Shown in pieces: positions 29,879 through 33,412 of a stretch of 64,000 nucleotides of DNA. Numbering within the stretch: the stretch's first letter is position 1; the number at the start of each line of letters is the position of its first letter. Below the pieces are notes generated by a model. The model was not told the origin of the DNA, did not search any database, and saw nothing but the letters and a program-made list of their open reading frames with translations. The stretch comes from an uncultured bacterium (GTDB taxonomy: Bacteria; Acidobacteriota; Aminicenantia; Aminicenantales; CALLJL01): positions 1-64,000 of the forward strand of contig CALLJL010000023.1 of the NCBI GenBank assembly GCA_938092135.1, in the 5' to 3' direction. The position numbers were made by a program, and so were the translations under genes.

Positions 29879-31081
29879 ATGACCAAAAAAAAGGAAAAAT
29901 TTGGCTTTGTTTTGGTCCTAATTATCTTTCCCCTTACCTTGAGCGCCGGTGGTTGGAATAATACTTTGCTGGGTTGTCGGGCTATGGGCATGGGCGGAGC
30001 CTTTATTGCTGTAGCTGATGATCCCAGTGCTATCTTCTACAATCCAGCCGGTCTCGTCAGACAACGAGATGCCTTTAATTTTTCTTTGAATGGCTTTCAT
30101 ATCTGGCCGACCCATATTTATATAGCCCCTACAGGCCAGCAAATTCAAAGTCGCTTTGAAAGCTCTGTTCCTCAGATCTTTGTTACTTATCGAATGAATG
30201 AAAAAATAACGGTTGGCTTCGGAGCTTATATTCCCTTTGCCGGTGGGGGAGTCGAATGGCAAGAGTCGGATCTGGGCTTTCCTTTTAAATCCACCCTAGG
30301 CATTATTTCCTACTCACCCTCTCTGGCTTTCGAAATTAATGAAAGACTTTCCGTGGGCTTTGCCCTCAATTTCTATCATGGAATTTTAAATGTCAGCACT
30401 AAAATGGATCCCTTTGGCGAGATGAAAGAAGAAGAAAGTGGCTCAACCATTTCAGCCTCTTTCGGTCTTTTATATCGCTTTTCCGAAAAAGGAGCGGTGG
30501 GCTTCAGTGTAAGAGGCCCAGGCAAAATAAATCTGGCGGGCACGACCGCCGTTAACTATGGAGGTTTCAGACTTAAGCTTGATTCTGAGACCTCCTTTAA
30601 TTTACCCTGGGACCTAGAAGCTGGCTTTTCCTACCGTTTGAGTGAGCGTCTTCTTTTCTCGGCCAGCACTCAATATACCCTTTGGTCCTCGCTAGATAAA
30701 GTTGATAAGGTAATTAAAAATATCCCTATAATAGGGGAGATTAGAACATCAGAAGTTATGAACTTCGAAAATATTTTAATCAGCCGAGCAGGCTTGGAAT
30801 ACGCCTTTCCTCAGGGTGTTTTTCTACGCGGTGGAATTGGCTATGATCGCAACGCTACCCCCGATGAGTCCCTAAATGTCATGAATATTGACGTCGATAA
30901 ATTTAGCTTATTAGGCGGAGTTGGCTATCGCTCTGGACGAGTCTCGATTGATTTTGCTTATATTTATGCTCTGGGTAAAGAAAGAGAAAAATCCATACCT
31001 GGATTTGGTCCCCATCCTCTCATTGAAAAATATAACCTTAAAGTTTTTATTCTTGGCCTTGGGCTGACTTACTCTTTTTAA
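29879..31081 (+). CDS. OMPP1/FadL/TodX-family outer-membrane transport protein
   Basis: A 400-residue exported beta-barrel. The signal peptide (MTKKKEKFGFVLVLIIFPLTLSAGG) is followed by the family N-terminus CRAMGMGGAFIAVADDPSAIFYNPAGL (about 32-58), which plugs the barrel. Alternating beta-strands fill the rest, ending in the outer-membrane-type aromatic terminus TYSF. Members import hydrophobic compounds such as fatty acids. The track's start is 27 codons upstream, but AAGGGAGAG before the ATG at 29879 and the signal peptide favour the later start. It converges with dapF (4-bp overlap of stops). Confidence 0.92.
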   Translation: MTKKKEKFGFVLVLIIFPLTLSAGGWNNTLLGCRAMGMGGAFIAVADDPSAIFYNPAGLVRQRDAFNFSLNGFHIWPTHIYIAPTGQQIQSRFESSVPQIFVTYRMNEKITVGFGAYIPFAGGGVEWQESDLGFPFKSTLGIISYSPSLAFEINERLSVGFALNFYHGILNVSTKMDPFGEMKEEESGSTISASFGLLYRFSEKGAVGFSVRGPGKINLAGTTAVNYGGFRLKLDSETSFNLPWDLEAGFSYRLSERLLFSASTQYTLWSSLDKVDKVIKNIPIIGEIRTSEVMNFENILISRAGLEYAFPQGVFLRGGIGYDRNATPDESLNVMNIDVDKFSLLGGVGYRSGRVSIDFAYIYALGKEREKSIPGFGPHPLIEKYNLKVFILGLGLTYSF

Positions 31082-31923
31082 ATGACCAATCGGCCTTCGA
31101 AAACAACCTCAGCTGGTCCGGTTTGATAGACTTTTTGACCCTGCCATTCCACTAGAACTGAACCCATGCTGGTTTTTACTTTTACTTGATTATCCGTCAG
31201 TCCTTTAAGAATCGAGGCTACGGCGGCTGCAGTTGAGCCACTGCCAGAGGAGAGAGTTTCACCAACGCCCCTTTCCCAGAAGAGGACTTCAATTTCGCGG
31301 CGATTTAAAACCCGGATAAATTCAATATTGGTTCGATTGGGGAAGAAGGGATGGGACTCGATTTCCCGGCCAAGTTGATGCCATTCGATTCTGGCTGGAA
31401 AGCGGTCGACGAAAATAGCACAATGGGGATTACCCACCGAAACGACAGTTATGGGATAGATTTTTTGATTTATCGAGAGAGGATAGTCGATGATTTTTTC
31501 ATGATAAGAACCATCATCAAAGGGAATATCCTTAGAAGTTAGCTTGGGAACACCCATGTCAATTTGAATTATATAGCTAGTAAGAGAAGCTTCAATAAGA
31601 GTACTTTCTTTTTCTCCTGCTGAAGTTAAAAAAATTATTCGAGGGGTGTTTATTTTTTGATGATAATATAAGCAGGCAGCTGCACAACGAAGTCCATTAC
31701 CTGAAATTTCGGGTTCTGTTCCATCGGCATTAAAAATGCGGAAATGGACGATGCCTTCTGAAGCATTGCGAATAGAAGTGATGATTAGGCCGTCGGCTCC
31801 AACCCCTATGTGACGATCACAGACTTTTCGGGCAAACTGGCCAAAATCGATTGTCAGACTGATTTCCCCGTGATCAATAACTAAAAAATCATTACCTAAA
31901 GAATGAAGCTTCGTAAACTTCAA
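31078..31923 (-). CDS. dapF: DapF-like diaminopimelate epimerase lacking both catalytic Cys
   Basis: A 281-residue protein with the DapF fold: MKFTKLHSLGNDFLVID, EISGNGLRC, GNPHCAIFVD and GETLSSGSGSTAAAV. DapF interconverts LL- and meso-diaminopimelate using two Cys, one before GNGxRC and one before GxGxxA. Both are Ser here: Ser74 (TCA, 31702-31704) and Ser226 (TCT, 31246-31248). The rest of the active-site scaffold is kept. Either a Ser-containing DapF clade or a changed activity is possible. It follows htrA by 1 nt, so they are probably co-transcribed. Confidence 0.88.
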   Translation of the reverse strand: MKFTKLHSLGNDFLVIDHGEISLTIDFGQFARKVCDRHIGVGADGLIITSIRNASEGIVHFRIFNADGTEPEISGNGLRCAAACLYYHQKINTPRIIFLTSAGEKESTLIEASLTSYIIQIDMGVPKLTSKDIPFDDGSYHEKIIDYPLSINQKIYPITVVSVGNPHCAIFVDRFPARIEWHQLGREIESHPFFPNRTNIEFIRVLNRREIEVLFWERGVGETLSSGSGSTAAAVASILKGLTDNQVKVKTSMGSVLVEWQGQKVYQTGPAEVVFEGRLVI

Positions 31924-31924
31924 A

Positions 31925-33412
31925 TCAAGGCATCCTTAAAGTGACAATAAAATCGCGGCTTAGGCCTTCTCTTTCCCGCCGCATAAGAAGCAAAATAGGC
32001 TCACCGGATTTTATCCGTCTTAAGGCTTGCTGGAATTCCCGGGCTGAAGTGACTTTAATTCGATTTACCTCAAGGATGATATCACCTGGCTGAATTCCCT
32101 TTTTAGCTGCTTCACTAAAAGGACTTACGTCAGTTACAAGGACCCCTTCCTGAGTTTTCAGGCCATAGGATCGGGCTATCCGAGGGGTTAGAGTGGTCAC
32201 GGTTAGACCAATATCTTCCGGACCTGATTCTGGAGTCCTCTCTGTTTCTTCCTCTGGCAATTCACCAATAGTGGCGGTAAGAGTTTGTTCTTTTCCATCT
32301 CTTATGATTTTAAGGGTGGCTTTAGAGCCAGGCGGAATTTCAGCAATTTTAAAGCGAAGATCCATGTCATCCTTAACTTTTTGTCCATTAATCTCAAGGA
32401 TGACATCATATTGTTTTAATCCGGCCTTATCGGCTGGACTATCAGGTTCCACTGAGCTAACGACCACTCCTTCTTTGCTTTTTAGCTTTAGAACCTGTCT
32501 TAATTCTTCATTAATGGCTGTGGGGACGATGCCAAGATAACCCCGAATAACTCGGCCCTTTTCTTTTAGCTGGGCTACAACTTTTTTAGCCAGATTGGAA
32601 GGAATGGCAAAGCCGATACCAGCATAGGCTCCAGTGGGCGAAAAAATATTGCTGGTAATTCCAATGACTTCACCTTTTAAGTTGACCAGAGGACCACCAG
32701 AATTACCCCGATTTATGGCGGCATCTGTTTGGATGAAATCCTGATACACTGGTTCGGACGTGCCCAGTTGCCGGCCTTTGGCACTGACTATTCCAGCCGT
32801 AACTGTATGTTCAAGTCCCCAGGGGTTACCTATAGCGAGAACCCATTCCCCAACCTTTATCTGGGAAGAATCGCCCATTTCGACAAAGGGGTAATTGTTA
32901 CCATCAACTTTAATTAGAGCTAAATCGGTTCGAGCATCTAAACCAACCGTTTTGGCAACGATTTCATCGCCCTTACTGGTAAAAACTGTTATCTTGTTTG
33001 CTCCTTCAACCAGATGGTTATTGGTGACGATATAACCATCAGAGCTTATAAAAAAGCCTGTCCCCTGAAAAGTATTTTTAAATTCCCGAGGCTGCCTTCT
33101 GGGGATCCCGAAAAAGCGATCCCAGAATTCGTCAAAGGGCCATTCCTCAAATCGCGTCACCTTTTCTATCCGCTCGCAAACTATTTTAACTACTGCCGGA
33201 GCAACCTTTTCGGCCACCCGGGCAAAATCAAAGGGCGAAACAGCTTCAGGCAAGGTTGAGGCGTAAAGAGGAGAGGGAGAGGAGAAATTGTTATCAGAGA
33301 TCCGAGTGGGGCTTAGTTGTCTTTCCTGATTTTCAGGTTGAATCAAAATTAGCCCGGCCACAAGAAGTCCTAGGACAAAACCGCTTCCGCCGATCCAAAG
33401 ATACTTTCGCAT
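31925..33412 (-). CDS. Periplasmic serine protease, HtrA/Do family
   Basis: A 495-residue envelope quality-control protease. A signal/anchor segment (about 6-25) is followed by a trypsin-like domain with catalytic His133 (TNNHLVEGA), Asp163 (ARTDLALIK) and Ser238 (GNSGGPL), then two PDZ domains (about 287-375 and 400-490). This DegP/DegQ layout degrades or refolds misfolded periplasmic proteins. GGAGGT lies 7 nt before the ATG, and a good promoter (33432-33460) precedes it. dapF starts 1 nt after its stop. Confidence 0.95.
   Translation of the reverse strand: MRKYLWIGGSGFVLGLLVAGLILIQPENQERQLSPTRISDNNFSSPSPLYASTLPEAVSPFDFARVAEKVAPAVVKIVCERIEKVTRFEEWPFDEFWDRFFGIPRRQPREFKNTFQGTGFFISSDGYIVTNNHLVEGANKITVFTSKGDEIVAKTVGLDARTDLALIKVDGNNYPFVEMGDSSQIKVGEWVLAIGNPWGLEHTVTAGIVSAKGRQLGTSEPVYQDFIQTDAAINRGNSGGPLVNLKGEVIGITSNIFSPTGAYAGIGFAIPSNLAKKVVAQLKEKGRVIRGYLGIVPTAINEELRQVLKLKSKEGVVVSSVEPDSPADKAGLKQYDVILEINGQKVKDDMDLRFKIAEIPPGSKATLKIIRDGKEQTLTATIGELPEEETERTPESGPEDIGLTVTTLTPRIARSYGLKTQEGVLVTDVSPFSEAAKKGIQPGDIILEVNRIKVTSAREFQQALRRIKSGEPILLLMRREREGLSRDFIVTLRMP

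Follow-up and report, generated by a model that had tools for sequence, protein, structure and literature searches.

The dapF gene in the 64,000-nucleotide stretch of acidobacterial DNA analysed here (the window; Table 1) encodes an orthologous, functional DapF that binds diaminopimelate (DAP) and most likely acts as an LL-/meso-DAP epimerase through Ser74 and Ser226 as its acid/base pair, in place of the two catalytic cysteines; we assign this reading a probability of about 0.68. As judged from the sequences compared, the Ser-Ser form is not peculiar to the window genome but represents a line of DapFs that occurs throughout the phylum. It is rather probable that Acidobacteriota, as a whole or for the most part, make meso-DAP for the cell wall and for lysine with a cofactor-independent, thiol-free two-serine epimerase.

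Table 1. Positions in the window of the dapF gene, its two exchanged codons and the adjacent upstream gene.
Feature	Position	Strand	Product	Basis
dapF, Ser-Ser diaminopimelate epimerase variant	31078..31923	-	281 aa, TTG start	TIGR00652, PF01678, AlphaFold model, Foldseek
Codon 74, TCA = Ser, at the site of the first catalytic Cys (H. influenzae Cys73)	31702..31704	-		
Codon 226, TCT = Ser, at the site of the second catalytic Cys (H. influenzae Cys217)	31246..31248	-		
htrA/degP-type serine protease gene, directly upstream of dapF	31925..33412	-		TIGR02037 over cut-off

The window protein scored 235.9 bits against TIGR00652, the DapF equivalog model, which is about twice the cut-off of 114.65, and 162.8 bits against PF01678 (cut-off 34.7), the only Pfam family matched at E <= 0.001. 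The proline racemase family profile gave no match, the identity to structures of that kind being 12–16%, and the kinship to PhzF is weak (14–15% identity, TM about 0.7, well under the DapF matches). Around the first site the window protein reads FNADGTEPEI-S-GNGLRC and the solved DapFs FNSDGSEPEM-C-GNGIRC; around the second the sequences are WERGVGETLS-S-GSGS and WERGAGITLA-C-GTGA, respectively. By this alignment residues 74 and 226 are certain to occupy the positions of the catalytic cysteines of the solved DapFs. In each of the 59 Ser-Ser rows aligned, the cysteine pair that marks the DapF family is replaced by serine at both sites.

The AlphaFold model (mean pLDDT 91.5) has the two-domain DapF fold, with two predicted helices, 74–86 and 226–238, that carry the active-site serines as their N-terminal residues. 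The best PDB matches found by Foldseek were DapF structures (TM 0.84–0.89), and both the C73S and the C217S mutant of H. influenzae DapF rank high among them. The original prediction had described an intact DapF scaffold with Ser74 (TCA) and Ser226 (TCT) in place of both cysteines; codons and alignment agree with the exchange, and the profile scores over the cut-offs and the DapF-like predicted fold bear out the scaffold.

The 59 Ser-Ser proteins all share N11, N65, G75, N165, N199, E217, R218 and G227; position 76 is Asn in 57 of them and Asp in two, and position 228 is Ser or Thr throughout. Most of these conserved contact residues correspond by alignment to DAP ligands of Anabaena DapF, where the residues listed hold both ends of the substrate (PMC12039745). 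The dN/dS ratio of the window dapF and its nearest relative is about 0.04, a value that is only rough because dS is near saturation. The TTG start lies one base past the htrA stop codon, and a synteny comparison showed that the htrA–dapF order is kept in the Aminicenantia loci that extend far enough upstream. The low dN/dS, the conserved DAP contacts and the conserved synteny, together with the genomes that have DapB and LysA and no DapF match besides the Ser-Ser one (see below), make it very improbable that the protein is a decayed or non-catalytic DapF retained for a non-enzymatic role, as the loss of both catalytic thiols and the apparently incomplete DAP pathway of the window genome might lead one to think.

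The close relatives of the window genome are Candidatus Aminicenantes. A DapF match was found in 57 of the 59 genomes searched (the window genome and relatives), and the Ser-Ser pair in all 61 Aminicenantes loci besides the window's for which both positions could be read (L003–L065); two further, incomplete loci have Ser at the second site, and the whole-genome Aminicenantes copies, which overlap with the loci of the named collection, agree with Ser-Ser. The codons vary synonymously (TCN at both sites, and AGC at site 74 in six cases), hence it is the residue and not the codon that has been kept. Since all Aminicenantes relatives read share the pair and use varied codons, sequencing error and chance are excluded; taken with the dN/dS of the gene, a pseudogene is ruled out as well. 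The search for another dapF that the original prediction had proposed found no second copy, and in particular no Cys-type DapF, in the window genome (94% complete). Among other Aminicenantes, one genome (G049) carries a Cys-Cys DapF-like gene (L086) in addition to the Ser-Ser one, and second DapF matches are also present in G025, G016 and G057.

Sixty DapFs from other Acidobacteriota, a non-random choice from the matches with the better scores in 247 genomes sampled from the phylum, some of them from further families of the window genome's class, comprise 44 Ser-Ser, 14 Cys-Cys and two Cys-Ser proteins. The paired change, which had been predicted to be a coherent one, is thus fixed across Aminicenantes and present in most of the other acidobacterial DapFs read. 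The two Cys-Ser proteins (L155 and L188) come from genomes without a LysA match and group with Cys-Cys proteins. Two Holophagae-type Ser-Ser DapFs (L161 and L175) have SGDG, not SGNG, beside the first catalytic position. Outside Acidobacteriota the pair is Cys-Cys in E. coli, in seven of eight DapFs from a plasmid collection and in two viral-contig matches; a divergent DapF paralogue of Burkholderia stagnalis (L249) has Cys and then Ser at the catalytic positions. No paper on a Ser-Ser DapF was found among open-licence papers, and a description elsewhere is possible.

Placement in a DapF tree had also been proposed. In a maximum-likelihood tree built without the two trait columns, 55 of the 59 Ser-Ser rows fall on one well-supported branch (SH-aLRT 97), and four Holophagae-type Ser-Ser rows lie elsewhere. 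After removal of four long rows, the likelihood was slightly improved when the Ser-Ser rows were all constrained to one clade (p-AU 0.547). Several independent origins were considered, as the free tree split off four rows, yet a single clade was not rejected (p-AU 0.55), and the data are compatible with a single origin of the Ser-Ser pair.

Next we consider the genomes in which the Ser-Ser protein is the sole DapF. Twenty-eight of the 44 Ser-Ser genomes outside Aminicenantales have DapB, 25 of these 28 have one DapF match, and in 23 of the 25, spread over 15 families, LysA also scores over the cut-off. LysA acts on the D centre of meso-DAP, so the cells of these 23 genomes need an epimerase, and the Ser-Ser DapF is the sole candidate found. 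DAP dehydrogenase (Ddh) scored over the cut-off in two of the 247 phylum genomes, neither being among the 23. In a single-contig Acidobacteriota genome (G278), mpl (UDP-MurNAc:tripeptide ligase, over cut-off), an ldcA-like carboxypeptidase gene and a Ser-Ser dapF lie nearly abutting on the same strand (L235:2763-5920, minus strand), apparently as an operon, which would place this dapF in a meso-DAP and peptidoglycan-recycling context.

These observations bear on an alternative that we regard as unlikely, namely that the Ser-Ser clade has changed its chemistry: it would bind DAP or a close analogue but perform an elimination or a one-sided exchange, or would act on another substrate, meso-DAP coming from elsewhere. 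Such a change would fit the near loss of racemisation in Ser mutants of Cys-type racemases (PMC11602996), the occurrence of a Ser/Thr pair with dehydration in the proline racemase superfamily (PMC4113996) and the retention of dapF in Aminicenantes without DapB, but it is at odds with the mpl–ldcA–dapF neighbourhood, the group-wide conservation of the DAP contacts and the 23 genomes that have DapB and LysA and neither another DapF match nor Ddh. Because of the last two points, only one half of the expectation of a "Ser-based or different reaction" holds: a Ser-based reaction fits, while a different one is not favoured. Likewise, of the large set of Ser-Ser DapFs with proven epimerase activity that had been named as counter-evidence to the original prediction, the large set was found and the proof of activity was not.

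We infer DAP as the substrate and proton transfer by the serines from the conserved contacts, the predicted fold, purifying selection and the genomes with a sole DapF. In Cys enzymes a thiolate removes the alpha proton, and the thiol on the other side donates one, both thiols being located at helix N-termini, which stabilise the anion (PMC12039745). Ser74 and Ser226 would be two opposed acid/base residues with a geometry as for the Cys pair, and would themselves move the proton, with help from backbone NH groups and from the N-termini of the helices, as the thiolates do. The pKa of free Ser is far above that of Cys, and among the group-specific positions of the Ser-Ser proteins no new Lys or His base stands out, so that activation of the serines does not appear to be explained by any such residue. 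Residues 6, 83 and 215 differ systematically between Ser-Ser and Cys-Cys proteins and may represent compensating changes; retention of Ser at both sites across the phylum suggests compensation elsewhere in the protein. In the proline racemase superfamily, a natural Ser/Cys 4-hydroxyproline 2-epimerase has activity, and a catalytic Ser has been proposed for it (PMC4113996), whereas Cys-to-Ser mutants of the histidine racemase HisR (C67S/C209S) lose most of their activity (PMC11602996).

Quite unlikely, in our estimate, is an epimerase in which the serines merely position water, hydroxide or another residue that transfers the proton. The weakness of Ser as a base, the lack of an evident activating residue and the group-specific second-shell changes at residues 6, 83 and 215 would be consistent with such a relay; the predicted placement of both serines exactly at the Cys positions, at helix N-termini, and the catalytic Ser proposed for the hydroxyproline epimerase (PMC4113996) argue for direct transfer by the two serines. 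The reaction seems to be run without sulfur, or by a route so far undescribed.

In the window species itself, DAP synthesis looks incomplete and the protein's own substrate supply is uncertain. The genome (G000) encodes MurE of the DAP-adding type (NF001126 over cut-off, motif DNPR) and LysA over the cut-off. The DapB C-terminal domain was not detected in any of 13 Aminicenantales genomes (the window genome and 12 relatives), and none of them has Ddh over the cut-off. With the models searched, neither LL-DAP aminotransferase nor dapA scored over the cut-off in the window genome, which has one sub-cut-off DapA-like protein. Some of the 13 genomes carry dapA, dapH, a dapE-like gene and an aminotransferase gene, the DapB step being unaccounted for. 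The Aminicenantes genome G005 combines a dapA–thrB–dapH–dapE-like–aminotransferase cluster with a single Ser-Ser DapF. A 785-aa frame of the window genome (L198:2921-5275, plus strand; G000:C8) resembles aspartate aminotransferases in its N-terminal half and is without a match in its C-terminal half among the 25 family matches listed; similar long frames occur in most of the related genomes. A literature search found nothing on the peptidoglycan chemistry of Aminicenantes. Either unrecognised enzymes may fill these gaps or DAP may be scavenged. As the DAP route of the window genome looks incomplete, the function proposed for its DapF rests mainly on the orthologues.

DapF serves as the textbook case of a two-cysteine enzyme and is a target for antibacterials. 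If the proposed reading is true, the DapF fold can abstract an alpha proton with a pKa of about 29 without the help of a thiolate, and the Ser-Ser enzymes are predicted to be insensitive to aziridino-DAP, to cysteine-directed inhibitors and to oxidation. The presence of Cys-Cys, Cys-Ser and Ser-Ser proteins within one phylum provides a natural data set for the exchange of a catalytic pair. Profile-based annotation labels the Ser-Ser proteins as DapF and leaves the change unflagged.

Compared with known systems, the window protein resembles the DapFs of E. coli, H. influenzae, Anabaena and Arabidopsis (TIGR00652) in fold, length, DAP contacts and family score, with 35–40% identity to the solved DapFs over the full length, but the characterised enzymes are Cys-Cys and also differ from it at residues 6, 83 and 215. 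Broadly the same fold, a natural Ser at the first site and demonstrated activity are combined in the Ser/Cys 4-hydroxyproline 2-epimerase and the Ser/Thr 3-hydroxyproline dehydratase of Agrobacterium vitis, which, however, belong to another family, act on other substrates and have Cys or Thr at the second position (PMC4113996). The histidine racemases HisR/CntK and O-ureidoserine racemase share the DapF fold and a two-base cofactor-independent mechanism; they are Cys-Cys, the window protein is 14–15% identical to HisR and about 31% identical to O-ureidoserine racemase, and it is set apart from them by the conserved set of DAP contacts. The H. influenzae C73S and C217S proteins (PDB 2q9h and 2q9j) carry the Cys-to-Ser exchange at the same positions and are among its best structural matches, but these are laboratory single mutants, whereas the window protein belongs to a natural double-Ser lineage.
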